From: Calditrichia bacterium
Lineage (GTDB): Bacteria > Calditrichota > Calditrichia > RBG-13-44-9 > J075
Assembly: GCA_028284905.1 (NCBI GenBank)
Contig: JANQQU010000068.1
Location: 1-64,000 of the forward strand
Length of the DNA stretch: 64,000 nt
Reading direction: 5' to 3'
Of the stretch, positions 4,801-44,165 are shown in pieces. The translations under genes and the position numbers were made by a program. Position 1 is the stretch's first letter. Each line of letters begins with the position of its first letter. The notes under the pieces were generated by a model. It was not told the origin of the DNA and made no database searches. It worked only from the letters and a program-made list of their open reading frames with translations.

Positions 4801-5352
4801 ATGAAAAATATTGGATTAGGCATTATAACTGTGGCGTTTCTGGCAGCTGCTTACCTTACCTCGCTGGACCCGCAGCTGGTGAACTGGGCATATTTTATTC
4901 CGGCAATTGTCGTTGGCTTTATTGGTGTGGCATTGGTGCAAGTGGGCGGTAAGCAGGAAGCCACTGAGGAAAGCAAAATGGCTGAAGATATCTCCATCAT
5001 CGAAAACAGTATCCAGAATATCGTGGAGAAATCTTCCCAACTGGATGCGGATAAGGATAAAATCAACACTTACGATATGCTCCACAAAATTGATGATATC
5101 CTATTGGATGATCTCAATGCATTTGTCGCATCGCGGGAGAGCATCAAGCATGTCTATAGTTTACAGGAATATGCCACGGTGATGAGTCATTACGCTGCCG
5201 GCGAGCGCTATCTCAATCGGGTCTGGTCGGCCTCTGCCGATGGCTACATCGACGAAGTGAATGAATACATCGGCCGTGCAAAAGAGCAGTTTATTGAGAC
5301 GCAGAAAGTGCTGCAGTCCCTGAAAGATTCGCAGGCCAGTCGGGTGCAGTAG
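4801..5352 (+). CDS. Small membrane protein with coiled-coil tail, downstream of OPT transporter
   Basis: 183 residues; family not recognised. Two hydrophobic segments (about 4-20 and 27-48) form a hairpin in the membrane, followed by a charged, helical region rich in E, K, D and Q (about 50-180) that looks like a helical bundle or coiled coil, probably cytosolic. A GAAAGGAACTTAAA ribosome-binding stretch precedes the ATG. The gene lies 58 bases behind the OPT transporter and is closed by a strong hairpin, so the two likely form one unit. An accessory or assembly role for the transporter is inference from position only. Confidence 0.65.
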   Translation: MKNIGLGIITVAFLAAAYLTSLDPQLVNWAYFIPAIVVGFIGVALVQVGGKQEATEESKMAEDISIIENSIQNIVEKSSQLDADKDKINTYDMLHKIDDILLDDLNAFVASRESIKHVYSLQEYATVMSHYAAGERYLNRVWSASADGYIDEVNEYIGRAKEQFIETQKVLQSLKDSQASRVQ

Positions 5353-5392: not shown

Positions 5393-5593
5393 GCATTGGA
5401 TCTCCGCCGACTGGGTTATCGCAAACCTTGTTAAGGGAAATAGTATACCAATGGCCTTACAGGCCAAAATGTGAGGACGCGTTGTATTCCAGGTGAGTAA
5501 GAATTTTCCGAGTGTCTTTTCGGCAAAAAAAATGGTTCCCTGACATATTTTGTGAAAATGCATTTACTGGCAATATTTAAGATAAAAAATTCT

Positions 5594-5783
5594 GTAACCC
5601 CTTCAGGGTTTGTAAAAATTATCTCTAACCGTGGGGCGCGAAAAAACAACGCCCCACGGTTTAGGTCTGTAACGCCTTTGGCGTATTATTACCGCAAAGC
5701 GGTTATAGGTTTTAACCCTGGGCTGATAGTTTTTTCAGCCCAGGGTTAAAACCCCTAAATAGACTTTACCCTGAAGGGGTTAC
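5594..5783. mobile_element. 190-bp MITE-like element with 16-bp terminal inverted repeats and nested hairpins
   Basis: Ends are perfect inverted repeats: GTAACCCCTTCAGGGT at 5594-5609 and its complement at 5768-5783. Inside lie a 12-bp stem (5627-5638 with 5650-5661), two small hairpins (ACGCC-TTT-GGCGT near 5671 and ACCGC-AAA-GCGGT near 5691) and a perfect 19-bp stem (5708-5726 with 5735-5753). There is no coding capacity. It resembles the structured REP/MITE-type elements mobilised in trans. It sits 209 bases before the CHAT-STAND gene. The rest of 5393-5992 shows no gene. Confidence 0.7.
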
Positions 5784-5992
5784 ATAAGTGGTGCTACAAG
5801 TAATGCGGAATCACAAAATATGTCATAGAACTCAAAAATTTGCGATGAAATATTCCCAACTGTAGAAATCTCAACTTCCCTATTCCCCATTTGCCCCGTT
5901 TTTATGTATTCAAGAGATAATTTCATCAACAATTGTTTAAAAGATTGATAGTTATAAGAGCGACAGTTGACAAATAACAGAGGTAATATTGT

Positions 5993-8900
5993 ATGTCGGC
6001 GAATAACAATCACTCTCCAATCCCGGTGATCTTCCTGGCCTTTGCGAACGATCAGGTGGATACAACCAAATACCTGCGGAAACTTCCGAAAGAGCTGGCA
6101 GGCATTCGCAAAGAATTGAATGCTGCCCGGCAAGCCGGAGTGTGTGAAGTAATAGAACGCGCGAATGTCACCATTGACGACATCTTCGATGTCTTCCAGG
6201 AATACCGCGAGCGTATCGCCATTTTTCACTATGGCGGCCATGCCGGAAGTTATCATCTGCTGCTGGAAGCGCACAGCGGTAAGCATGCAAAGGTGCATAG
6301 TGAGGGGCTGGTAAGTTTCCTCAGTAAGCAGCATGGGCTCCAGCTCACTTTTATCAATGGCTGCTGCAGCCAGCTGCAGGCGGAGGCGTTAGTGAATGCC
6401 GGTATTCCTGCGGTCATCGGCACTTCGGAGAATATCCGGGACGATGTTGCCCAAGACCTCGCTGTTCGTTTTTACAAGGGCCTGGCAACGAAAGAGGGGC
6501 TTACTCTGGAAAATGCCTGGGTAGAAGCCTGTGATCTCATCTTCACTAAAAAGGGCAATGATGGTATTCGGGCCGGCGGGGTCTGGCATCCCAGTGAATC
6601 TACTGATCGGCTTCCCTGGGATATTTACTACAACCCGGATGCCGCGGAAAGTGTGAGAAAATGGAGCCTGGGCCAGGCGGCGAATAATCCGTATTGGGGA
6701 ATGCCGCCCTTGCCGAAAAAATATTATGAGGAGCTCCCCGGGGCACCATTTGTCGGATTGAACCGCTTTACCCGGGAACAGGCCGGGATCTTCTTTGGGA
6801 GAGGCGGGCAGATTCGGGAATTGTATAATCGCCTGAAAAACCCGAAGCATATCATTCTTTTTTGCGGGCAATCCGGGGTGGGAAAATCGTCCCTGCTTTT
6901 TGCCGGTCTGGCCCCGCGAATTGAAGGAGAATTTACGGTGCAATATGCTCGGCGTCTCGCCGGGAAGGGCCTCGCAGCCACGCTGAGGCAGGCATTGCAG
7001 GATGCCCTGACGGCGTATAAGGCTGAAGGGAAAAAAAACAAATCCCTTTTGGAACAGTGGCAGGCGATTGAAAAACAGCTTGAGAAACCTTTCCTGCTCA
7101 TCCTGGACCAGGCCGAGGAAGCTTATACCAATCCTTTGGGAAATAAGAAAGATGGCGAAGCCGAATGGCAGCTGTTCCTGAATGAATTAAGCACGCTTTT
7201 CCCATCCTCCGGACGGTTACTCGAAGGGAAACTAATCCTCAGCTTTCGCAAGGAATATTACCCGGAAATCAGCGCGATGTTTAGTAAGCAGCGCCTCGGT
7301 TTTACTTCGATGTTTTTGCCGCCAATGGATCGGGCCGGTATTATTGAGGCGGTGGAAGGTGTTACTCAAAAATCTGAGCTGCGGGAAAAATACCGCTTAC
7401 AAATCGAACCGCCAGCCGATGGCAATAGTCTCGCAGAAAAGGTCGCTGAAGACCTTGGCAGTAACCCGGAACGTTCCGTGGCTCCGCTGCTGCAAATTCT
7501 ACTGACCAACCTTTGGCAGCAAGTCGCAGAGGACCCGGAACAACGCATCTTTACTTTTGCAGCATACCGGGAATTAGAAGCCCGGGGTTTGGGCATGCAA
7601 GAGTTTCTGGAAAAACAACTGGGTAAGCTTAGAACGTGGCGGAGAGCAGTGGTTGATTCCGGGATGGTGCTCGATCTGCTCCATTTCCATTGCACGGAAT
7701 TATCCACTGCCGGTACCCGCAGCCGGGAAGAGATACGCCAGAAATATGGCGACAGCAAAGAAATAAGCGAGTTAATCGAAAAATGCCAGAACCTCTATCT
7801 CCTCAGAAGCGCGGGAAAGGACAAGCCGGTAAGCCTTGCGCACGACGTCCTCGCCCCGGTAGTCAAACTGCGCTATGACAAGCTGCAGAGCAAACCGGAA
7901 AAGCTGGTAGCATTTTTTGATGAACAACTTACCGCACTCCATGAACAACAACCGGCAGAGGTAGATTCCGGCTTAGTGCTCGACCTCCTGCAATTTTTCT
8001 GCGAAGACGCCACCGGCCAGCAACGCCATAGCCGGGCAGAGATTGATAGCATATTTGGCCGGAAATCGTTAATTGACAGCATCCTCGCCCGGTGCCAGAA
8101 ATTATACCTTCTTGCCAGTTATAAAACAGGAAATAAAACAGAATATTTTCTGGCGAACACCCTCCTTCAACCGGTCATCCTTCGCAAATACACCGATTCC
8201 GAAAAACCCGGGCAGCGATTCACTCGTTTGCTTGAGGAACGGCTGCGCAGCTCCCGGGTGGAGGAAAACAACCTTTATCTTACTTTCCGGGAATTACGCC
8301 TGCTTAAACCCGGAAAAGCCGGCCGGCGCCTGCTGAATGATGTAGAAAATCATTTAGTTAACAACAGCCGTGCCCGGCGGAAGCGCATCTCTGGAATCGG
8401 ATTTATATCAACAGCAATTCTTCTTTTTGTCGCATTCTTTGGGATACAATACCAATTGGATATGGATACCTATCGGGAAGCCCGCAGTGAAATAGCCCCG
8501 GTGCTGGTAGAAAGGAATTACTACGCAAAGGATTTGTATGATAACGGCAACGGGTTTAGCAATTCATTTATTACCTATCGGGACAGCAGTGCGCTAACCG
8601 ATCCAACGCTGTTGCCCGCAGACAGCACAGTGATTTATGATGTTGCCAGCTATCTCTATTGGTCACTAACACCTTCAACAGAGACAATGAATTATGCGAA
8701 AGCAAATGATTACATTACGCAGTTGAACAGCGACTCGGTTGGCGGCTACGGTGACTGGCGGCTGCCATCCTGGGAAGAAGCGATGTCCCTGATGCAGCGC
8801 GACACCACTGCAGCGGGATTACATATCAACTCCACTTTTAGTGCAGCGCCGGCACAAATCTGGACCGGCAGCGAAATTACCGGGCGGCATACCTGGCGGG

Positions 8901-9481
8901 TGGACTTCCGCAGCGGCCGCCTAGACGGTGTCTCTCCGGATAATCGGCACCAGGTCTGGGCAGTGCGCTCGGCAGCAGCACGTCGACCTTTCCAGGGACA
9001 AGAGTTCGCTGTGAAAGCAATGCTGGTGGATAGCAATTATTACGGTAGTGATTATAATCCGGGCGGCAGCGGGATAGACCGTGAAAAATATCACTACGAG
9101 AGACAGGCTGACAGCCAAGTAGTATATGATCGAAAGACTAACCTTTACTGGCAGCGGGAAGGCTCTGACAATGGAATGACTATTTCAAATGCTGCTGAAT
9201 ATATTAACTCTTTGAACAGCGGGAATGGATTCGGTGGCTATAAAGATTGGCGACTGCCCACCCTGGCTGAGGCGATGAGCCTGATGGCACCAGAAAAGAA
9301 TGAGAATGGTCTCCATATCGACGGGATATTTGGCGCGAGGCAACGCTGGATCTGGACCTCCGAACAAGAGCGCGCCTCCCGCGCGTGGACTGTCAATTTC
9401 CTCATCGGTTATTGCGGCAGCAACGTCATCGGTTACAACTTCTATGTGCGCGCTATTCGTTCCGGACAATCATCTCAATAA
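5993..9481 (+). CDS. Transmembrane CHAT protease - nSTAND ATPase receptor with two C-terminal DUF1566 domains
   Basis: 1162 residues. Domains in order: a CHAT caspase-like peptidase (about 1-215) with catalytic His83 in FHYGGHAG and Cys124/125 in INGCCSQ; an nSTAND1-type NTPase opening with FVGLNRFTREQAGIFFGR, P-loop GQSGVGKSS (292-300) and Walker B FLLILDQAEEA near 367-377; two tandem winged-helix-like repeats beginning VDSG-M/L-VLDLL (about 553 and 656), each ending CQ-N/K-LYLL; one membrane helix (about 802-824); then two DUF1566/Lcl domains with DWRLPSWEEAMSLM (about 918) and DWRLPTLAEAMSLM (about 1083). STAND-CHAT proteins are signal-activated proteases of bacterial immunity and cell-death systems. 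Here the sensor would be outside the membrane. An AGAGG sequence 9 bases before the ATG supports the start. Hairpin arrays flank the gene. No partner gene is adjacent. Confidence 0.85.
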   Translation: MSANNNHSPIPVIFLAFANDQVDTTKYLRKLPKELAGIRKELNAARQAGVCEVIERANVTIDDIFDVFQEYRERIAIFHYGGHAGSYHLLLEAHSGKHAKVHSEGLVSFLSKQHGLQLTFINGCCSQLQAEALVNAGIPAVIGTSENIRDDVAQDLAVRFYKGLATKEGLTLENAWVEACDLIFTKKGNDGIRAGGVWHPSESTDRLPWDIYYNPDAAESVRKWSLGQAANNPYWGMPPLPKKYYEELPGAPFVGLNRFTREQAGIFFGRGGQIRELYNRLKNPKHIILFCGQSGVGKSSLLFAGLAPRIEGEFTVQYARRLAGKGLAATLRQALQDALTAYKAEGKKNKSLLEQWQAIEKQLEKPFLLILDQAEEAYTNPLGNKKDGEAEWQLFLNELSTLFPSSGRLLEGKLILSFRKEYYPEISAMFSKQRLGFTSMFLPPMDRAGIIEAVEGVTQKSELREKYRLQIEPPADGNSLAEKVAEDLGSNPERSVAPLLQILLTNLWQQVAEDPEQRIFTFAAYRELEARGLGMQEFLEKQLGKLRTWRRAVVDSGMVLDLLHFHCTELSTAGTRSREEIRQKYGDSKEISELIEKCQNLYLLRSAGKDKPVSLAHDVLAPVVKLRYDKLQSKPEKLVAFFDEQLTALHEQQPAEVDSGLVLDLLQFFCEDATGQQRHSRAEIDSIFGRKSLIDSILARCQKLYLLASYKTGNKTEYFLANTLLQPVILRKYTDSEKPGQRFTRLLEERLRSSRVEENNLYLTFRELRLLKPGKAGRRLLNDVENHLVNNSRARRKRISGIGFISTAILLFVAFFGIQYQLDMDTYREARSEIAPVLVERNYYAKDLYDNGNGFSNSFITYRDSSALTDPTLLPADSTVIYDVASYLYWSLTPSTETMNYAKANDYITQLNSDSVGGYGDWRLPSWEEAMSLMQRDTTAAGLHINSTFSAAPAQIWTGSEITGRHTWRVDFRSGRLDGVSPDNRHQVWAVRSAAARRPFQGQEFAVKAMLVDSNYYGSDYNPGGSGIDREKYHYERQADSQVVYDRKTNLYWQREGSDNGMTISNAAEYINSLNSGNGFGGYKDWRLPTLAEAMSLMAPEKNENGLHIDGIFGARQRWIWTSEQERASRAWTVNFLIGYCGSNVIGYNFYVRAIRSGQSSQ
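9389..9445 (+). other. Run of 19 pyrimidine-ending codons at the receptor C-terminus (DGR variable-region-like)
   Basis: From ACT 9389 to TAT 9445 every codon ends in C or T. From 9395 on, the residues encoded are N, F, L, I, G, Y, C, S and V, all obtainable by substituting adenines in AAY codons. The preceding DUF1566 copy of the same protein does not show this: its matching stretch uses CGG, GTG, CTA, CCG and CAG. The position, between a V-N-F-type strand and the final YVRAIR, matches where diversity-generating retroelements write their variable regions in DUF1566 proteins. No template repeat or reverse transcriptase is in the window, so this is a suggestion only. Confidence 0.4.
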
Positions 9482-9555
9482 TTTGATCATTTGACCCTTT
9501 GCATCTTTTTTGATGACCAATGTTACGCAATTACCGTGTGCTCAAGATAAATGCT

Positions 9556-9932: not shown

Positions 9933-12857
9933 ATGACGCAGCATCCCGCATTTGATCTGATTCAGGAAGCACATGTTTCCGAAGTAAATTCCCAGGCTTA
10001 TTACTATCACCACAAAAAGACCGGGGCGAAGATTCTCTCCCTGGCGAATGATGATGAAAATAAAGTTTTTGGCATTACCTTTCGCACCCCGCCGGAAGAT
10101 TCCACCGGCATTGCCCACATTATGGAGCATTCCGTGCTCTGCGGCTCCCGGAAATATCCGGTAAAAGAGCCGTTCGTGGAACTGCTGAAAAGCTCGCTCT
10201 ATACCTTTTTGAACGCTTTTACCTATCCGGATAAAACCTGTTACCCGGTGGCCAGCACCAATTTGCAGGATTTTTACAATCTGGTCGACGTGTATCTCGA
10301 TGCGGTGCTTCATCCGCGTATCACCCCGGAAATTCTTCAGCAGGAAGGCTGGCATTATGAACTGGAAAACGCCGATGATCCGATCATCTATAAAGGCGTG
10401 GTTTTTAACGAAATGAAGGGGGCAAATGCCTCGCCATATCGGGCGATTTCCCGGGCATCCACTTCGTCCATTTTTCCCGACAATACCTATCGGGTCGATT
10501 CCGGGGGAGATCCGGCAAATATTCCCGATTTAACCTACGAGCAGTTCAAGACTTTTCACGAGACTTATTATCATCCCTCAAACGCTTACATCTATTTTTA
10601 TGGGGATGACAATCCTGCCCGTCGTCTGGAGTTAATCGACGAATATCTACAGGAATTCGATGAAAAACCGGTCGATTCCCGGGTTGCGTTACAAGCGCGT
10701 TTTGATGAGCATCGCCGCGTGAACACCCGCTATTACTCCGGGGACAATGAGGGAGGCGGCAATAAGGGCGTTGTAACCATTAACTGGCTGATCGGCGATA
10801 CGCTTAACCGGACGGAGCGTTTACGCCTGCGCCTGCTCGATCAGGTGCTGCTGGGAAATCCCGCCGCACCGCTCTGGAAAGCTTTGATTGACAGTGGGCT
10901 GGGGGAAGATTTGTCCGCCACCGGATTGGCTATGAGCCTGCGGCAGTTGGCTTTTTCTACAGGACTGATGGGCATTGATCCCGCCGATGCTGATAAAGTT
11001 GAAAAAGTGGTTTTTGATACCTTGGAAGCTTTGGTGAAGAATGGCATTCCCGCTGATACGCTGGAAGCAGCAATCAACACCATCGAATTTCGCCTGCGGG
11101 AGAACAACACCGGATCCTATCCCCGTGGTCTGGCATTGATGCTCCGGGCGCTTTCCACCTGGCTGCATGACAGTGATCCCATCGAGCCATTAGGATTCGA
11201 AAATGCCTTGAAAACCATCAAGGAAGATCTTGCCGGAAACAAACAATTGCTGGAAGAGATGATCAAAACGCATCTCCTTTCCAACATGCATCGCACAACT
11301 GTCGTCCTGACCCCGGATGCTGCTATCGCCGAAGAAAAAGAAGCGGCAGAAAAAGCGCGCCTGGAAAAAATACAGTCAGGAATGACCCCGGCGGATTTAC
11401 AGCAAATTATCAGCGATACCCAAACATTGAAAGATGCCCAAAAGCAGCCGGATGCTCCGGAAGATCTCGCAAAAATTCCTCGCCTGACCCTGGACGATTT
11501 GGAGAAGAAACATAAGCCGCTGCCATTGGAAGTATTTCGGCATGGGGAAACGGAAATTCTCTACCATGATTTGTTTACCAGTGGTGTGCTCTACCTCGAC
11601 ATCGGTTTTAACCTGAAAAACGTGCCGCAGCGTCTGCTCCCTTACCTGCGCCTCTTTGGCAGGGCAATGTTGGAGATGGGTACCCGGGAAGAGAATTTTG
11701 TCTCTCTCTCGGAAAGAATTGGCAAGCATACCGGAGGCATCTCGCAGTCTGCGGTTACTTCTTTAACCCGGGATGGCCAGGACATCAATGCCTGGCTCTT
11801 CTTCTGGGGAAAATCGATGGTCGGGCAAACTGGAAAACTGTTGGCATTGTTCCGCGATATTTTCCTGCTGCCCAACTTGACTGATCAGGAACGATTTCGC
11901 CAGCTGGTGCTGGATGCAAAATCCAGTAAGGAAAACAGTCTGGGCGCGGCCGGCCATGCCCTGGTGCAATCCCGACTGAAAGCCAGTTTTTCCCCAAGTG
12001 GTTGGTTGGGAGAGCTAACCGGTGGGGTAAACTATCTGAAGTTTCTCCGGAAACTGAGCGAGAAGGTCGATAGCGATTGGGCGTCAGTGCAAGCGGATCT
12101 GGAAGATTTTTATGAGACGCTCTTTCATCGCGGAGGCATGATTTGCAATGTAACTCTGGACGAGGAAAACTGGCGGGTCGTGAAGCCGCAGCTGGAGGAA
12201 TTTCTTGAGGAAATGCCCCGGAAAAATATCGAGCTGCAAACCTGGAAACCGAAGCTGCGTAATGGGTTTGAAGGCTTAGCGGTGCCGGCGAGAATCAATT
12301 ATGTCGGTAAGGCAGCCAATATTTATGACAGTGGTTATCAGTATCACGGCTCGATCGCGGTTATCCAGAAATTCCTGCGCACCAACTGGTTGTGGAATCG
12401 GGTTCGTGTGCAGGGAGGCGCTTACGGGGCATTCTGTAATTTTAGCAAGCGTTCCGGTATCTTTAGCTATGTTTCTTACCGCGACCCCAATTTATTCGAT
12501 ACTTTAAAGAATTATGATGCTGCCGGAGAATATTTACGGAAAGCTGCCCCGGAAGGTGAGGAAATGGTCAAGAGCATCATTGGCGCGATCGGCGATGTCA
12601 GCCCTTATCAATTGCCGGACGAAAAGGGATATACCTCGATGGTCCGGTATCTCTTCGATGAGCGCGATGAAGAAATACAGCAGCTGCGAGACGAAATTCT
12701 CAACACTCGCGCCGAGCATTTCCGGGAGTTTGCCGATATGCTCGATCACGTCCGCGACAATGGCCTGGTAATCGTCGCCGGCAGTGAAGAAGCGCTCCGC
12801 AAAGCGAACGAAACTCAGGGCGATGCAGAGTGGTTAAAGATTAAGAATCTGATGTGA
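9933..12857 (+). CDS. M16C zinc metallopeptidase (presequence protease-like, insulinase family)
   Basis: 974 residues, the usual length for the PreP/M16C subfamily, in which one chain forms both halves of the peptidase chamber. The inverted zinc motif HxxEH is H62-I-M-E65-H66 in GIAHIMEHSVLCGS, and the distal zinc ligand is the Glu of GVVFNEMKGA (about 155). The C-terminal half holds the R/Y-type substrate residues typical of M16 (RVQGGAYGAFC). Family members degrade peptides, including cleaved targeting peptides in organelles. No signal peptide is visible, so a cytosolic peptide-clearing role is likely. GAGAGG lies 8 bases before the ATG. The 3' end and its hairpin are duplicated just downstream. 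Confidence 0.9.
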   Translation: MTQHPAFDLIQEAHVSEVNSQAYYYHHKKTGAKILSLANDDENKVFGITFRTPPEDSTGIAHIMEHSVLCGSRKYPVKEPFVELLKSSLYTFLNAFTYPDKTCYPVASTNLQDFYNLVDVYLDAVLHPRITPEILQQEGWHYELENADDPIIYKGVVFNEMKGANASPYRAISRASTSSIFPDNTYRVDSGGDPANIPDLTYEQFKTFHETYYHPSNAYIYFYGDDNPARRLELIDEYLQEFDEKPVDSRVALQARFDEHRRVNTRYYSGDNEGGGNKGVVTINWLIGDTLNRTERLRLRLLDQVLLGNPAAPLWKALIDSGLGEDLSATGLAMSLRQLAFSTGLMGIDPADADKVEKVVFDTLEALVKNGIPADTLEAAINTIEFRLRENNTGSYPRGLALMLRALSTWLHDSDPIEPLGFENALKTIKEDLAGNKQLLEEMIKTHLLSNMHRTTVVLTPDAAIAEEKEAAEKARLEKIQSGMTPADLQQIISDTQTLKDAQKQPDAPEDLAKIPRLTLDDLEKKHKPLPLEVFRHGETEILYHDLFTSGVLYLDIGFNLKNVPQRLLPYLRLFGRAMLEMGTREENFVSLSERIGKHTGGISQSAVTSLTRDGQDINAWLFFWGKSMVGQTGKLLALFRDIFLLPNLTDQERFRQLVLDAKSSKENSLGAAGHALVQSRLKASFSPSGWLGELTGGVNYLKFLRKLSEKVDSDWASVQADLEDFYETLFHRGGMICNVTLDEENWRVVKPQLEEFLEEMPRKNIELQTWKPKLRNGFEGLAVPARINYVGKAANIYDSGYQYHGSIAVIQKFLRTNWLWNRVRVQGGAYGAFCNFSKRSGIFSYVSYRDPNLFDTLKNYDAAGEYLRKAAPEGEEMVKSIIGAIGDVSPYQLPDEKGYTSMVRYLFDERDEEIQQLRDEILNTRAEHFREFADMLDHVRDNGLVIVAGSEEALRKANETQGDAEWLKIKNLM

Positions 12858-17417: not shown

Positions 17418-17975
17418 TTAAAGTGCCTTTATATCCGCCATGTGCTCCAGCATCAACCGCTCCCATTCCATTTTAAACCAGGGAGAATAACTCTCAGGAT
17501 TTTTGGCGATTGCACTGGTGACGTCATTAATGGAGAGATATTTCCATTCGGCGACTTCATTTGGATTTACTTGAATGGGATCATTGCTTTTGCCGATAAA
17601 AACCGCACACATTTCATGCTCGGAGCCGACTGTTTCATAACGGGCATGATATTGAAAAGTATAAAGATGTTTTAGCGGTGTGCTAATCCCCAATTCTTCA
17701 GCGAGACGGCGGGTGGTGGCATTCTCCAGATCTTCACCTTTGCGAGGATGGCTGCAGCAGCTGTTCGACCAAAATAATGGCCAGAGTGGCTTCTGATCAC
17801 TGCGTTGTTGAATCAGTAATTCACCGGTATCATTAAAAATAAAAATCGAGAAGGCCCGATGCAGAATGCCATCGCCTCTATGGCAGTCTACTTTGTCTTT
17901 ATAATCAATAATATTATCGTTTTCGTCAACCACGATCAGCATTTCATCATCAAAAGAAACTTGCGCATCATTCAT
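17418..17975 (-). CDS. idi: Isopentenyl-diphosphate delta-isomerase, type I (Nudix)
   Basis: 185 residues, the normal length for the type I enzyme, which interconverts isopentenyl and dimethylallyl diphosphate. Active-site Cys lies in SNSCCSHP and the metal/proton Glu in GSEHEM. The Nudix region reads RKGEDLENATTRRLAEELG, and the family opening DCHRGDGILHRAFSIFIF is intact. AGGAG lies upstream of the ATG. It is the last gene of the mevalonate group on this strand, 218 bases behind the reductase/kinase fusion, and completes the route to both C5 units. Confidence 0.93.
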   Translation of the reverse strand: MNDAQVSFDDEMLIVVDENDNIIDYKDKVDCHRGDGILHRAFSIFIFNDTGELLIQQRSDQKPLWPLFWSNSCCSHPRKGEDLENATTRRLAEELGISTPLKHLYTFQYHARYETVGSEHEMCAVFIGKSNDPIQVNPNEVAEWKYLSINDVTSAIAKNPESYSPWFKMEWERLMLEHMADIKAL

Positions 17976-18193
17976 TCTTGGTTCTGTCTCCTAAATCATC
18001 AATTGAAATCATACCGGTATCGACATCGGCAGATACGGTAATGCATCTCTAAATTTGGTATTTTACATTGCGAGCATTTTGCGTTAGCCCCACGCAATAT
18101 ATCTATGCATTATAAAGCGTAAAGAAAGGCCCTCAAAGTAAAAAGTGAAATGCGTATTTAACTGATTTATAAGTGAAGCTCAGTCAAATTATT

Positions 18194-20443
18194 TTAGCCA
18201 ATCTGGGTAATCATCGAACGATAACCGGAACGCCGCATTGCTTCGGCAACATCCTCGGCATTGTCCGGGCATAAGGCGATCATGGCGCCGCCACCGCCGC
18301 CACCGGTCAATTTTGCCCCGAGGGCACCGGCGTTACGAGCGATCTGGATCATCTCTTCCAGCTCCCAGCTCGATACCTGCAAGGCATTTAACAAACCTTG
18401 GTTTATGTTCATCAAATCGCCAAGGGTTGTCAGATCATGATTCTTGATCGCTTTTACCGCCCGCAGGGTTAATGCATTCATCTCCGTGAATATTCGGTCA
18501 TACATCATCTTGTTGTTTTCCCAGGCTTTACGGACATTGGCGACCATCTTCGCGGTTAAACTTTCCACCCCGGTAATCCCGATAACAATCGGAATTGGTT
18601 GCGGGCATTCCAGAGTTTTCATCATGGGAGGATCGCCCTTCTTAAAGAGAATGAATTTACCATAGGTCGCCATCGTGTTGTCGATACCGGACGGTGTGCC
18701 ATGGACAATCTCTTCCGAACGGAAAGCGAGCTTGTTGATCGTTGCATCATCCAGGTTGAGCTTGTAGTGTTCGGAAAGCGCCCGAATAATTGCCACCGCC
18801 AGCGCAGCCGAACCACCGAGTCCCATTGCACGGGGAATATGCGGGAAGATCTCGATGCGCATATTCCGGTCGCGCAATTCCAGTGTGTCGAGAATGAGCG
18901 TCAGAGAATCGTAAATCGAATATTTGTATTGAGTGCCAAAGTGCACCCGCTCTTCCACGCCCCAACGAGGAATGACTAGATGAACGCCATTTTCCACGTC
19001 CTTGACCTTTGCCTGAATGGCAATAGGAATCGGTGCAGAGATAACATGACTGCCATATACCGCCGCATGTTCCCCGAAGAGAATGATCTTTCCAAAGCCG
19101 GCCGGCAGCTTTTCCTTTTTCGGTGCTGTTTTTGGCTTGGCACCGCCGGCAGCAACATGCTTTTTCAAATCCTTGACGATTTCCTCTGCTTTCCAAACTT
19201 TGATTTCTCCGCTGTCAATCAAGCGATCTACTACTTCGTCAAAAATGTCCGGGGTCGCACCAGCAGCATTGGCAACGGTGCGGGCATGCAGGGTCATGTG
19301 TCCCTGCTGGATGCCCTCAGTGGAAAGCGCTTTGATTGCGGAGAAATTCTGTGCCAGTCCCACAGCACCCATCACGGCCATCAGTTCGGTGGCGCTTTCT
19401 ACATTGAGGATGCGATGGAGGATGGCAACGGAAGGATTAGATTGCAAAGGTCCACCCACCGTGCCCACTTTCATCGGCAGCTTCAGGCGACCGACCAGAT
19501 CGCCGTCATCATTTTTTGTCCATTGCGTCATGGAGGTATACCGTTTGCCGCGAGCGGCATAGGCATGAGCAGCGGATTCGATTGCGCGCCAATCGTTACC
19601 AGTGGCAATTGCGACAGCGTCGATGCCGTTCATGATGCCTTTGTTGTGGGTGGTTGCCCGGTAAGGATCGGCAAGGGCAAACTCGTTGGCGAGGATAATA
19701 CCATCCCGCACTTCTTCGCCGTCAAAGCCTTTGCCGGAAAGAAATTTGGTGGGGATGACGCATTCGGTTTTCACCAAAGCCCGGTCGCTGAGGTTGGAAA
19801 GAATTCGCAGAAAAACCTTGCCTCCGGAAATGTTCTCTACTAGCGAGGCAACCCCTTCACACATCGTATTTACCAGATTTGCACCCATGGCATCCCGGGT
19901 GTCCACCAGCAGGTGAACGATGAGCATATCGCCGCGATGAGAGGAATTGGGATGAATGATCACTTCCACATCCTTAGCCCCGCCGCCGCGCGCGACCATT
20001 TTCGGGTGAAAGCTATTGGCGAGGTTGATAATTTCTTCCTTATTCTGCAGCAATGCTTTTTTCGCATGGGAAGGATGTTCCAGATCGACCACCTGAATTT
20101 GCCCAATCAACAATGGCTCACTCGCTTCGCTGTGGAAACCGCCAGCCTGACGGACAATCTTTGCCGCCGAGCTAACCGCGGCAATAATTGAGGGTTCTTC
20201 GACCACCATCGGCACGATATAGTCTTTCTCATTGATTTGAAAGTTCAGCCCCAGACCGATCGGGAGACCAAATACACCGATGACGTTCTCCACCATGGTA
20301 TCCGCTTCATCCGCCGAAAAAACATTCGTGCTGTTTGTCAGCATTTTGAAATCTTCATTGGAAAGAATACCTCTTTCCTGCAGCAATTCCAGGCGTTCCT
20401 GAACACTGAATTTGTAAAACTGGGGAATGCGGGATCGATCCAT
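18194..20443 (-). CDS. HMG-CoA reductase (class II) - mevalonate kinase fusion protein
   Basis: 749 residues, two enzymes in one chain. Residues 1 to about 425 are a class II HMG-CoA reductase: ENVIGVFGLPIGLGLNF, the catalytic Lys loop THNKGIMNGIDAVAIATGND, the nucleotide-binding DAMGANLVNTMCEG and the catalytic His in GHMTLHARTVA. An Ala/Lys/Pro linker (AAGGAKPKTAPKKEK, about 432-446) leads into a mevalonate kinase: GKIILFGEHAAVYGS, the GHMP motif PRAMGLGGSAAL (about 540-551), HGTPSGIDN and LTGGGGGGAMIAL. It would carry out two pathway steps, HMG-CoA to mevalonate to mevalonate 5-phosphate. No frameshift or internal stop is seen, and all key motifs look intact. Its ATG directly abuts the TAA of the upstream kinase gene. 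Confidence 0.92.
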   Translation of the reverse strand: MDRSRIPQFYKFSVQERLELLQERGILSNEDFKMLTNSTNVFSADEADTMVENVIGVFGLPIGLGLNFQINEKDYIVPMVVEEPSIIAAVSSAAKIVRQAGGFHSEASEPLLIGQIQVVDLEHPSHAKKALLQNKEEIINLANSFHPKMVARGGGAKDVEVIIHPNSSHRGDMLIVHLLVDTRDAMGANLVNTMCEGVASLVENISGGKVFLRILSNLSDRALVKTECVIPTKFLSGKGFDGEEVRDGIILANEFALADPYRATTHNKGIMNGIDAVAIATGNDWRAIESAAHAYAARGKRYTSMTQWTKNDDGDLVGRLKLPMKVGTVGGPLQSNPSVAILHRILNVESATELMAVMGAVGLAQNFSAIKALSTEGIQQGHMTLHARTVANAAGATPDIFDEVVDRLIDSGEIKVWKAEEIVKDLKKHVAAGGAKPKTAPKKEKLPAGFGKIILFGEHAAVYGSHVISAPIPIAIQAKVKDVENGVHLVIPRWGVEERVHFGTQYKYSIYDSLTLILDTLELRDRNMRIEIFPHIPRAMGLGGSAALAVAIIRALSEHYKLNLDDATINKLAFRSEEIVHGTPSGIDNTMATYGKFILFKKGDPPMMKTLECPQPIPIVIGITGVESLTAKMVANVRKAWENNKMMYDRIFTEMNALTLRAVKAIKNHDLTTLGDLMNINQGLLNALQVSSWELEEMIQIARNAGALGAKLTGGGGGGAMIALCPDNAEDVAEAMRRSGYRSMITQIG

Positions 20444-21523
20444 TTATGCGTCCTTTTCATGATAAGTTTGCAAGCCATTGGCTGTAATATCTATTTGAAT
20501 GATGGTGTACGGCGTTTCCGCTACCTGGAGGGCAACATCTTCCAGAACTTCCGGGGAATCGCTAAAGAAGATGCCGAGATCACCTCCACCAGCGCCGGAA
20601 GGTTTATAAGCAGCGTTACAATCACGGGCGATCGTCGCTAACGCTTGATGTTCCTGGGAAATAATCGGTGCTTCGCTTTGCTGCCCGAGTTGCGCCATTG
20701 CGGCGTGATAACGTTCGACTGCATCGAGAAAGGCGGGCACGTCGTTATTCATCAGGGCATGGCATCCGGAAAAAGAAATGTCGGTCATTTCAGTCATTAG
20801 TTGCTGAAAACCATTGGGCGAATGATCGCGGAATTTATGTACCTGCCGCACCAGTTTCCGGGTAGATGCCGGCACGCCGGTCCAGATGGTAAGCAAATAC
20901 AATCCTTCAGGGTAATCCATTGTTTCAATCATTGCTTCATGAGAAGTAGGATCCGGATTGATCTGGTATTGCAGAATGCCACCAAAGCAGCTGGCGGCAA
21001 CGTCGATGCCGCTGCCAAGCTTGCCCTGTGCAAATCGGTGCGTTTTTAAAGCGTGTTGGAAGAAACTGTACTGAGCATCATTATCTTTATAAAAATGTTC
21101 ATTTTTACTGGCGGCGATAGCACCCAATAATGACACTGTTAGTGCGGCGCTGGAACCAAAGCCAATCTTCCCGTAATCACCATGGTAAAACCCGGAAGTG
21201 TCGATAGTAACCTCCCATTTTTCCGGAGATGTTTCCAGCTTTTCCAGACCCGCTTCAAAGGTAGTCGTAAAAAATTTCAGGCGTTGCTGTAATTCTTCGC
21301 TTAAAGCGGTAATGAATTGAATATTATTCTGCTCGTCCAATTGAAAAGAGAGTGCATCTGAACACATGACCGGCGCCTGCAGTTGAAAACTGTCGTTTCC
21401 GGGAGGCAATAGCGTAACTTCGGCAGTGCGGTTGATGGCAGCCACCAGGGCTGGTGCGCCTTCCATCACTGCATACTCTCCCAGCAGAATCAATTTTCCC
21501 GGTGCTTGTGCACGAATTCCCAT
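20444..21523 (-). CDS. Phosphomevalonate kinase (GHMP family)
   Basis: 359 residues. N-terminal APGKLILLGEYAVMEGAPALVAAINR is the GHMP substrate/fold signature of phosphomevalonate kinases. The ATP loop is KIGFGSSAALTVSLLGA, and KLGSGIDVAASCFGG and SGAGGGDLGIFF are the second and third motifs. It phosphorylates mevalonate 5-phosphate to the diphosphate. The stop codon is immediately followed by the start of the reductase/kinase fusion, so translation is coupled. The upstream neighbour is the diphosphomevalonate decarboxylase, separated by 168 bases that contain a family C repeat. Confidence 0.88.
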   Translation of the reverse strand: MGIRAQAPGKLILLGEYAVMEGAPALVAAINRTAEVTLLPPGNDSFQLQAPVMCSDALSFQLDEQNNIQFITALSEELQQRLKFFTTTFEAGLEKLETSPEKWEVTIDTSGFYHGDYGKIGFGSSAALTVSLLGAIAASKNEHFYKDNDAQYSFFQHALKTHRFAQGKLGSGIDVAASCFGGILQYQINPDPTSHEAMIETMDYPEGLYLLTIWTGVPASTRKLVRQVHKFRDHSPNGFQQLMTEMTDISFSGCHALMNNDVPAFLDAVERYHAAMAQLGQQSEAPIISQEHQALATIARDCNAAYKPSGAGGGDLGIFFSDSPEVLEDVALQVAETPYTIIQIDITANGLQTYHEKDA

Positions 21524-21595
21524 CTAGTCGCCTCTCAGCTGCATCTATTTGATTTTATCTAAATTTCAAATACTTTTTTAATTTCTTTATTTTTA

Positions 21596-21688
21596 ACCAC
21601 CGATAACCGGATAAAAAACAACAATCTAATTGATAGGTTTAATCTGTGTAAATCTGTGTAAATCCGTGTTCATCCGTGGCAAAACAAT
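21596..21688. repeat. Intergenic phrase-like repeat, family C
   Basis: Text of the type CACCGATAACCGGATAAAA, then TAATCTGTGTAAATCTGTGTAAATCCGTGTTCATCCGTGGCA, a near-tandem series of an 11-13 base unit. It is related to 14370-14401 and 14490-14519. It separates mvaD from the downstream kinase gene. Confidence 0.55.
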
Positions 21689-21691
21689 TTA

Positions 21692-22675
21692 TTACTCCGG
21701 CAAAATACGAGCGTCGCCACCGAGCTCAGTGCTGATAATTTGCCGGATACCTTTAATCTCGGAAAGCAAACCTGTCAGCTTCTCAACATATTCAGGTAGT
21801 GTCAATACTTTAACCTGCGGGCCGGCATCCATAGTAACATAAGCGGGAATTCCCTGCGCGCGTAGCCGTCGAACTTCATGGATCAGGGTGACGCTTAAGC
21901 CATTCCAGTAGATAATCGCCGGATTGGCAGACATCGCCAGGCCGTGCATCTTAAAACAGCTGAATTCACTGATTTCCCCAAGCTTCTCAATATCCCGGGC
22001 GACAATTGCTTCCCTGGCGATGGCAATATCATCCGGAGAAGTGTCTACCCAGGCCGGATAGTATGGAGAGGTTTCCGCGGTCAGGTTCATCCCTTCCGTG
22101 GAACCGATCGGTTTTTCTGCTTCGGAGGTGATAAGTATAAGCATTGCCAACGGCCAATGCTCGGCAGGATGAAGTGGCACTGCAATCGAATCAGAACCGT
22201 CGGCTTTTTCTCCCAGCTTCATTTCTACGAACCCCCCAAAAATGGAACGCGCGGCGGATCCTGAGCCTTGCCGGGATAGTTCGGAAAGACGGGTAGGGGA
22301 GAGGTCCAAACCAGCGGCATTCGCAGCAGCAACGGTGAGTGCGGCAAATCCGGAAGCCGAGGACGCTAGGCCGGCACCGGTAGGGAAATTATTCACACTT
22401 TCGATAATGGCACCATGCTGAATGCCGGCATCTTTCCGAATCAAGTCGAGAAATGCCGAAGCGCGGCGGGTTTGTTTTTCACCGGCATCGCTGCCATTGA
22501 TGGAAAGCGTGTCAATGGATAAGCCTTCCTGAAATTCCACGCTGGTTGTGGTCGAAAGGGCTTTCAGCGTCATGGAAAGGGAGCCCACTGCTGGTAAATT
22601 CAGACGGCTGTCGCGTTTTCCCCAATATTTAACCAAAGCAATATTAGCATGTGCCAGAGCAGTTGTTTTCTTCAA
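21692..22675 (-). CDS. mvaD: Diphosphomevalonate decarboxylase
   Basis: 327 residues, standard for the family. The N-terminal AHANIALVKYWGKRD and LPAVGSLSMTL substrate motifs, GAGLASSASGFAALTVAAA (phosphate loop) and SGSAARSIFGGFVEM, are all present, as is the C-terminal TMDAGPQVKVL with the catalytic Asp. It converts mevalonate 5-diphosphate to isopentenyl diphosphate with ATP. It starts 32 bases after the end of selD and stands at the head of the mevalonate genes. It is probably co-transcribed with both sides. Confidence 0.93.
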   Translation of the reverse strand: MKKTTALAHANIALVKYWGKRDSRLNLPAVGSLSMTLKALSTTTSVEFQEGLSIDTLSINGSDAGEKQTRRASAFLDLIRKDAGIQHGAIIESVNNFPTGAGLASSASGFAALTVAAANAAGLDLSPTRLSELSRQGSGSAARSIFGGFVEMKLGEKADGSDSIAVPLHPAEHWPLAMLILITSEAEKPIGSTEGMNLTAETSPYYPAWVDTSPDDIAIAREAIVARDIEKLGEISEFSCFKMHGLAMSANPAIIYWNGLSVTLIHEVRRLRAQGIPAYVTMDAGPQVKVLTLPEYVEKLTGLLSEIKGIRQIISTELGGDARILPE

Positions 22676-42431: not shown

Positions 42432-44165
42432 ATGTCAGGTCAAGTCAAATACTCATTACCGATAGGCACTAATCTGCGGGAATATCTGATTCAGGATGTC
42501 CTCGGGGTCGGTGGCTTTGGTATTACCTATTTAGCTGAGGATACGCATCTGAAGCGGAAGGTAGCTATCAAAGAATATTTTCCGGTAGAAATTGCCTGGC
42601 GAGACCATGATACCACAGTTATTCCCAAATCGAAAAATTTTGAGATACCGTATTCCGTCGGCGTCGATCGCTTCTTGCGGGAAGCGCGGTCGCTGGCGCA
42701 ATTCGTTCACCCGAATATTGTTCAGGTAATGAACTTCTTCCCGGCCAATGGCACCGCCTACTTTGTCATGAATTACGTCGAAGGGGAGAGCCTGGCGGAT
42801 TATTTGAAACGGGAAGGCCCTCTGAAAGATGATCAATCGGTCCTGGATATTTTCCTGCCAATTATTAAAGGCTTGCAGGCCGTACATCATAAAAATATTC
42901 TGCATCGCGACATCAAACCGGATAATATTTATCTCTGGAAGTTCGGAGATCCGATTCTCATCGACTTTGGCGCCTCCAGGCATGCCGTAGGGCATATTAG
43001 CAACCGAAGCCTTACACTGGTGCTTACAGAGGGATATGCGCCGTATGAACAATATCAGACCGATAGCAATAAGCAAGGGCCCTGGACAGACATTTATGCG
43101 CTTGGGGCAACGATTTACAAAACCATCACCGGCACCCACCCTCCGAAAGCACCGGACCGCCTCGGGCTGGATGGTGATAATGACCCGTTAGTGCCCCTGA
43201 TTGAGTGCGCCACCGGGCGATTTAGCAAGAAGCTCCTGAAAGCTATCGACAAATGCCTGGAAGTTTCTATCAAAAAACGTCCGCAGAATGTGGCTGAGCT
43301 GGAAACACTTATCCAGGGTAATAAAAACAAACCATACATTCCCGTCGATAAACAGGTTACCCGCATCAATGTGCAGGCACGGCCGGTACCTGATGTGACT
43401 GTGGAAGAGACCAAGGCGATTCAGGAACCGCGCTCCGTCTCTATCCGGCGTATTCTGGTAAAAGGCGGCACCTTCTGGATGGGCGAAAAGAATGCCATTG
43501 GTTCGGACCGCCGGGCGCACCGAGTTCGCTTGCGCGATTTTTTTATGAGCCCCACGCTGGTCACCAATCATCAGTATGCGGCATTTCTGAATAACGCTGG
43601 CAATCATAAAGAAGGCGGCCGCTATTGGGTCAATCTCGATATGCCCGGGTGTGGTATCAAATGTTTGGACGATAAATTCATTCCCAATCCCAATCTGGTT
43701 GATTCACCGATCGTGAATGTGACCTGGTATGGCGCCCAGGCATTCTGCGAGTGGGCCGGAGGTCGTTTACCGACGGAAGCGGAATGGGAATTTGCTGCCA
43801 GAAGCGGTGGTAAAAGTGAAGTTTGGGCCGGTGTCAGCAACGAAGATGAGCTGGACGAATATGCCTGGTATTACAAGAATTCCGGCGGCAAGGTACATCC
43901 GGTTGGGCTGAAACGCCCGAACAGTCTCGGACTGTATGATATGAGCGGTAATGTTGGTGAATGGTGTCTGGACTGGTATAACCGCGGATACTATCGCTGG
44001 TCTTCCGAGATGAACCCGATCAATACTGAAAAAGCGACTGATAAAGTGGTGCGTGGCGGTTCCTGGAATAATAATCCCCTGGGCATTCGCACCTTTTTCC
44101 GTGGGTTTATGGTGCCGAATAGCGGTTCCGGACGGATTGGCTTTCGGATTGTTTTTGATAAGTGA
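42432..44165 (+). CDS. Soluble Ser/Thr protein kinase fused to an FGE/SUMF1 domain
   Basis: 577 residues without a membrane helix. Kinase domain 18-290: glycine loop VLGVGGFGITYLA, Lys47 in KVAIKEYF, Glu84, catalytic HRDIKPDN (Asp160) and LIDFGASR (Asp178), all intact. A Pro/Val-rich linker (about 300-338) precedes a formylglycine-generating-enzyme-like domain (340-577): VKGGTFWMG, GGRLPTEAEWEFAARSGG, NVGEWCLDWY and VVRGGSWNNNP. In such fusions the FGE part usually serves as a ligand-binding C-lectin-like fold, not as an oxidase; the Cys pair of true FGE is not evident. It stands alone between fpg and the catabolic cluster. GAGAGGG precedes the ATG. Confidence 0.88.
   Translation: MSGQVKYSLPIGTNLREYLIQDVLGVGGFGITYLAEDTHLKRKVAIKEYFPVEIAWRDHDTTVIPKSKNFEIPYSVGVDRFLREARSLAQFVHPNIVQVMNFFPANGTAYFVMNYVEGESLADYLKREGPLKDDQSVLDIFLPIIKGLQAVHHKNILHRDIKPDNIYLWKFGDPILIDFGASRHAVGHISNRSLTLVLTEGYAPYEQYQTDSNKQGPWTDIYALGATIYKTITGTHPPKAPDRLGLDGDNDPLVPLIECATGRFSKKLLKAIDKCLEVSIKKRPQNVAELETLIQGNKNKPYIPVDKQVTRINVQARPVPDVTVEETKAIQEPRSVSIRRILVKGGTFWMGEKNAIGSDRRAHRVRLRDFFMSPTLVTNHQYAAFLNNAGNHKEGGRYWVNLDMPGCGIKCLDDKFIPNPNLVDSPIVNVTWYGAQAFCEWAGGRLPTEAEWEFAARSGGKSEVWAGVSNEDELDEYAWYYKNSGGKVHPVGLKRPNSLGLYDMSGNVGEWCLDWYNRGYYRWSSEMNPINTEKATDKVVRGGSWNNNPLGIRTFFRGFMVPNSGSGRIGFRIVFDK

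Follow-up and report, generated by a model that had tools for sequence, protein, structure and literature searches.

A CHAT-nSTAND1 protein with a predicted membrane helix and a DGR-type variable region in its C-terminal lectin-fold domain, from a Calditrichia bacterium

Described relatives of the receptor

DGR-diversified STAND/CLec antigen sensors have been published for multicellular bacteria, some with CHAT domains or transmembrane (TM) segments (PMC10907252; statements on the DGR literature here refer to the available parts of the sources). In the sensors described by Dore et al. (PMC10907252), a central STAND NTPase, either nSTAND1 or NACHT, precedes a C-terminal CLec domain that carries a variable region (VR) at its 3' end. 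Some of their targets have CHAT, TIR or TM segments; remote (trans) targets occur, and a genome may hold several VR genes. The authors propose that multicellular bacteria owe to DGRs a kind of adaptive sensing, and they note that the CLec sensors of STAND proteins have not been characterised by experiment. Such built-in hypermutation of alarm receptors is known from a few multicellular bacteria. Remote DGR targets with CHAT or TM segments are also published from cyanobacteria (PMC7517822). There, targets are scattered in the genome, a few have TM segments, and the C-terminal CLec domain sits on orthocaspase-, kinase- or CHAT-like N-termini. Among DGR targets, DUF1566 is reported to be the Pfam domain that occurs most often (PMC6642488).

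Three other groups of proteins share parts of this design. Avs and other bacterial NLR proteins have the same tripartite order of effector, STAND module and sensor. The CRISPR proteases SAVED-CHAT and TPR-CHAT (Craspase) have a CHAT protease domain. The C-terminal domains of Legionella Lcl and Bdellovibrio Bd2740 (8q4e, 8oks) have the Lcl_C fold; to our knowledge, none of these is attached to a STAND-CHAT chassis.

The window, that is, the whole 64,000-nucleotide stretch analysed here, encodes a protein of 1162 residues that combines these elements (Table 1). In contrast to the sensors of Dore et al. (PMC10907252), as far as these are described in the available text, it holds CHAT, nSTAND1, a predicted TM segment and two DUF1566-type lectin domains in one chain; its lectin is of the Lcl_C/DUF1566 type, whereas theirs for DGR 6 is of the FGE type; and the gene stands alone, in an assembly without RT or TR. 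It also differs from the cyanobacterial proteins, among which kinases dominate and no nSTAND1-TM link is named in the part of that work available (PMC7517822). Unlike Avs and bacterial NLR proteins it has a protease effector, a predicted membrane span and a lectin sensor, and the known defence models of PADLOC gave no hit for it. Compared with SAVED-CHAT and Craspase, it has another sensor and another trigger, and neither a SAVED nor a CRISPR component.

The literature already describes CLec-STAND sensors, DGR targets of the DUF1566 type, remote targets, and targets that have CHAT or TM segments (PMC6642488, PMC7517822, PMC10907252). The combination of CHAT, nSTAND1, a predicted membrane span and two Lcl_C domains in a single chain is not named in the available passages of that literature and is new as far as we found, though an identical architecture may be present in the supplementary figures of Dore et al. 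With sensor, switch and protease in one chain, the idea of adaptive sensing by DGRs becomes directly testable: a ligand outside can be set against proteolysis inside, and one can ask whether the VR sets specificity.

Table 1 Features of the CHAT-nSTAND1-Lcl_C gene (window positions)
Feature	Positions	Strand	Basis or remark
Whole gene: CHAT - nSTAND1 - duplicated winged-helix-like segment - TM - Lcl_C - Lcl_C(VR)	5993..9481	+	1162 aa ORF
CHAT caspase-like protease domain, aa 10-169	6020..6499	+	Pfam PF12770, E 5e-7, above cut-off
Predicted catalytic His83 codon	6239..6241	+	invariant in 18 homologues
Predicted catalytic Cys124 codon (not Cys125)	6362..6364	+	invariant in 18 homologues; C125 varies
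nSTAND1 NTPase domain, aa 252-620	6746..7852	+	PF20703, E 9e-37
Winged-helix-like segment, copy 1, aa 538-628	7604..7876	+	internal alignment z=27
Winged-helix-like segment, copy 2, aa 641-733	7913..8191	+	absent from paralogues P0002, P0003
Predicted transmembrane helix, aa 799-817, N-in / C-out	8387..8443	+	hydropathy 2.16
First Lcl_C (DUF1566) domain	8630..8968	+	13/17 NNY, no clear VR
Second Lcl_C domain, C-type-lectin fold, holds the VR	9116..9460	+	Pfam, sensor model, fold search
DGR-type variable region, aa 1132-1156, WTVNFLIGYCGSNVIGYNFYVRAIR	9386..9460	+	variable codons 9395-9445, 17/17 NNY
IMH-like conserved 3' block, reaching past the stop codon (9479-9481)	9443..9514	+	88% identical to paralogue-derived query

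Protease and switch on a shared chassis

The reading frame starts with ATG, and a ribosome-binding-like AGAGGT lies upstream. A Pfam scan of the protein identifies CHAT, nSTAND1 and two Lcl_C domains (formerly DUF1566), so the single-chain combination proposed in the original prediction is borne out as a predicted architecture. The neighbouring genes are one without a Pfam match (4801-5352) and one for an M16-type peptidase, read by eye (9933-12857). No partner gene adjoins at this locus, as had been claimed, but the same cannot be said of the paralogue P0003, which belongs to a C14 caspase gene array. Nested inverted repeats lie upstream of the gene, at 5535-5831; some 200 bases within them are 80% similar to contig C64 (L042, 15098-15305), and they are probably a dispersed non-coding repeat.

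Both H83 and C124 are invariant across 18 CHAT-nSTAND1 homologues. The earlier choice between Cys124 and Cys125 is thereby narrowed: C125 is not conserved, so the catalytic nucleophile should be C124. Judged by its sequence, the CHAT domain is a putative protease with a His-Cys dyad, H83/C124. The nSTAND1 module, placed between effector and sensor, keeps its Walker A residues (G292, G295 and G297-K298-S299-S300) and acidic Walker B residues (D372/E375), all invariant in the same 18 proteins. A full-length AF2 model is confident over CHAT and nSTAND1 (pLDDT about 90 in the latter) and poor beyond the membrane helix, where it is unusable for the sensor half. Its best fold match is the SAVED-CHAT filament 8tl0, the closest solved relative of the CHAT domain by both sequence and fold, followed by AAA/Orc-type ATPases; a wheat resistosome comes at rank 23. 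A single-sequence PDB search of the protein was informative for the CHAT domain only.

Residues 538-628 and 641-733 align with a local score of 150, against a maximum of 53 for shuffled sequences (z=27). This is a true tandem duplication, as had been proposed; the putative winged-helix fold ascribed to it is suggested by the predicted order of helices and strands. The second copy is private to the window protein when compared with its two closest paralogues, P0002 and P0003.

The architecture does not stand by itself. The genome (8.55 Mb in 93 contigs) encodes seven further CHAT-nSTAND1 proteins, with a shared chassis and differing C-terminal parts: Lcl_C in P0002 and P0003, WD40 in P0007 and P0009, HEAT in P0008, CHASE2 in P0006 and HATPase in P0005. 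Planctomycetes, Bacteroidota and Chloroflexota also have this chassis, in most cases with a membrane helix, and there it bears WD40, LRR or TPR repeats. The CHAT-nSTAND1 chassis itself is therefore ordinary and widespread, and it is the attached C-terminal domain that varies. That one genome pairs this chassis with different sensors supports the split into sensor and effector. A single protease-STAND chassis thus comes with many sensors, of which one is hypervariable. A gene of a relative (L118, G002:C112, 4453-7725) encodes a CHAT-NACHT-Lcl_C protein with a VR (18/19 NNY), which is the same logic with a different STAND module.

Variable lectin domain and the template of a relative

The Lcl_C match has an E of 1e-39, and the two domains form a true internal repeat (z=38). 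Modelled alone, the last 166 residues reach a pLDDT of 92; their closest folds are the C-terminal domains of Legionella Lcl and Bd2740 (8q4e, 8oks), then C-type lectins, whose fold DGR targets use. The doubled sensor of the original prediction thus stands as far as the two domains go, but it is not a fixed one: its C-terminal copy ends in a DGR-type VR, the most informative feature of the gene and absent from that prediction. The first Lcl_C domain was rejected as a second VR, with 13/17 NNY codons and the codons CTA, CCG, CGG and CAG among them.

The VR lies at the 3' end of the CLec-fold domain and varies at codon positions 1 and 2, in NNY codons. Within its 25 codons, the last of the domain, every one of the 17 variable codons ends in C or T. 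Taken together, the eight VRs of this genome have 127 NNY codons out of 134, where the genes as a whole give a background of 0.528 (binomial p=4e-27). With the amino acids held fixed, 61/64 codons are NNY and 40.1 are expected (z=5.8). Pairwise differences fall on codon positions 1 and 2 in 73% of cases inside the VR versus 55% upstream, with a p of 5e-17 that is indicative, as pairs of copies are not independent. Such a pattern is what adenine-specific mutagenesis of AAY codons would leave behind. For an internal negative control there is the Lcl_C gene on contig C9 of this genome, which has 10/18 NNY in both domains. The gene at 42432-44165 of the window encodes a Ser/Thr kinase with an FGE-sulfatase-like C-terminus (by eye), an architecture that resembles cyanobacterial DGR targets; at 27/39 NNY, it was rejected as another VR gene.

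While the VR itself diverges, nucleotide similarity among the paralogues runs 33-77 nt past the stop codon, and the block through and past the stop is conserved in five copies of this genome. Protein homology does not explain DNA similarity after the stop among Lcl_C paralogues; it is what is expected of a DGR homing site. At E<=1e-15, the Lcl_C/VR family occurs in five of seven genomes of the taxonomic family (this one included) and in none of the 33 other genomes of the phylum examined. The viral contigs contained only distant Lcl_C relatives, 31-42% identical.

A DGR template is present in a relative, G006, of the same taxonomic family and a different genus. Its contig C586 carries a complete DGR with a bAvd-like protein, TR, RT and target; its TR and VR show 13 mismatches over 87 positions, 13/13 of them at TR adenines. 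The AAC-rich TR reads ASRAWVVNFNNGNCNHNDLNNNNYVRAVR and aligns residue for residue with ASRAWTVNFLIGYCGSNVIGYNFYVRAIR of the window protein. Compared across genera, 14/24 adenines of this TR are mismatched in the window VR versus 9/51 other bases (p=6e-4), the template of this test being the TR of the related genus and not the gene's own. The RT of C586 (L099, 7057-8559, minus strand) has a C-terminal match to MutS domain I (PF01624, E 1e-5); the available part of the literature on DGR and MutS makes no mention of such a fusion. Pairs of an Avd-like gene (by eye) and an RT gene also occur at L107 (G005:C121, 8537-9983), L100 (G006:C420, 220-1665) and L101 (G006:C596, 6804-8679). Two of these pairs adjoin NADH dehydrogenase-type genes, and no TR or target was noticed near them; they are possibly trans-acting DGR machinery or another class of RT.

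We consider that the gene encodes a membrane-anchored, single-chain STAND-CHAT receptor whose lectin VR is rewritten from an AAC-rich template, as a present or recent remote DGR target, and which would turn binding of a ligand outside into proteolysis inside (probability about 0.6). The domains, the intact catalytic and Walker residues, the VR signature, the homing-site-like block and the co-linearity with the G006 TR are the observed parts of this explanation.

It is also possible, though somewhat unlikely, that the receptor is intact and its DGR lost; the VR would then be a remnant of earlier diversification, in a sensor that no longer changes. An assembly whose completeness is given as 100% yielded no DGR RT (Pfam RVT_1 profile, DGR RT query), no TR (homing-site query, degenerate AAY pattern, G006 TR) and no accessory protein, all of which G006 has. 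The only RT hit, a 664-aa frame on contig C62, was rejected as a DGR RT, being group-II-intron-like by its end (by eye). Against such a loss, the 17/17 NNY codons of this VR and the 127/134 of the eight copies indicate little decay. Moreover, assemblies of this family break at VR and TR repeats, which makes a missing cassette plausible: contig C92 stops 142 bp beyond the VR gene P0003 and shares an exact 93-base overlap with contig C50, a (GACAAT)n microsatellite terminates C50, and in G006 the contigs C381 and C586 each stop within a VR. The window gene would be the remote (trans) target of a DGR missing from the assembly, or else an orphan of recent origin.

Proposed working and membrane topology

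In the diversified receptor that we favour, CHAT and nSTAND1 would form the conserved cytoplasmic chassis, and the exported half, with its two C-type-lectin-fold Lcl_C domains, the sensor. Adenine-specific mutagenic retrohoming from the AAC-rich template would rewrite the C-terminal 25 codons of the sensor. A ligand at the outer face may then bind the variable lectin surface and release nSTAND1 for nucleotide exchange and oligomerisation; the CHAT proteases, once clustered, would be activated and cleave cytoplasmic substrates, with defence or cell death as the end result. STAND receptors and the DGR-diversified sensors of Dore et al. (PMC10907252) are the models for this scheme. Its topology in the membrane, the present activity of the DGR, the ligand, the oligomerisation step, the substrate and the outcome are inferred. 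Candidate substrates are C14 caspases encoded elsewhere in the genome, and the locus of P0003, rich in such genes, is a lead to them. Two C14 caspase genes precede P0003 on C92 and, if the 93-base overlap with C50 is real, three caspase genes with Lcl_C VRs follow it. The whole would be a hypervariable caspase array (L035, 905-8359, on C92 and L041, 1-6540, on C50), the three caspase-Lcl_C genes having five VR-like ends. Tentatively, and with the odds somewhat against it, the protein could be a bacterial analogue of a death receptor that hypermutates: a membrane-spanning chain with a lectin ectodomain rewritten by a DGR in trans, in which a ligand bound outside would directly activate the caspase-like protease inside by way of the STAND switch, its chassis reused in this genome with four other kinds of C-terminal domain and its variable lectin shared with C14 caspases.

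The same receptor might instead serve kin or surface recognition, adhesion or development, and not antiviral defence or death. The sensor is predicted to face the exterior, which holds neither phage DNA nor most Avs ligands; adhesins have Lcl_C domains, as weak NCBIfam matches indicate; and kin recognition is raised as an alternative in the available text of Dore et al. (PMC10907252). We regard such a role as unlikely, since an intact caspase-like effector and a paralogue locus rich in caspases are more in keeping with a destructive response.

The topology on which the proposed receptor depends is a prediction. A single hydrophobic helix is found at residues 799-817, in agreement with the span originally placed near residue 810, and AF2 draws a continuous helix over 783-816. 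The net charge of its flanks is +4 N-terminally and -1 C-terminally, which predicts the protease inside and the sensor outside; the opposite-face arrangement first proposed thus holds in this predicted form. The position of the helix is kept in P0002 and in most CHAT-nSTAND1 homologues. In the VR paralogue P0003 the alignment shows no such hydrophobic segment by eye, so the family can do without an exported sensor. We infer a single-pass membrane receptor with a cytoplasmic effector and an external sensor. It seems quite improbable that the helix stays out of the membrane and that the protein lies entirely in the cytoplasm, as classical Avs proteins do. Some homologues do have WD40, HEAT or LRR repeats after the same helix, and such repeats are usually cytoplasmic; but the hydropathy and the strong positive-inside bias of the helix, its presence at the same place in most homologues, and a paralogue ending in CHASE2, usually an extracytoplasmic domain, speak against it.

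It is hardly credible that no DGR was involved and that ordinary positive selection or gene conversion among the several paralogous Lcl_C genes of the genome made the C-terminal variation, because neither process limits variation to AAC-derived NNY codons or conserves non-coding DNA after a stop, and the C9 Lcl_C gene lacks the signature.

Elsewhere in the window, positions 17418-22675 hold a mevalonate-pathway cluster (by eye). Within it, a 749-aa ORF at 18194-20443 seems to join HMG-CoA reductase and a mevalonate-kinase-like domain in one protein, also read by eye.
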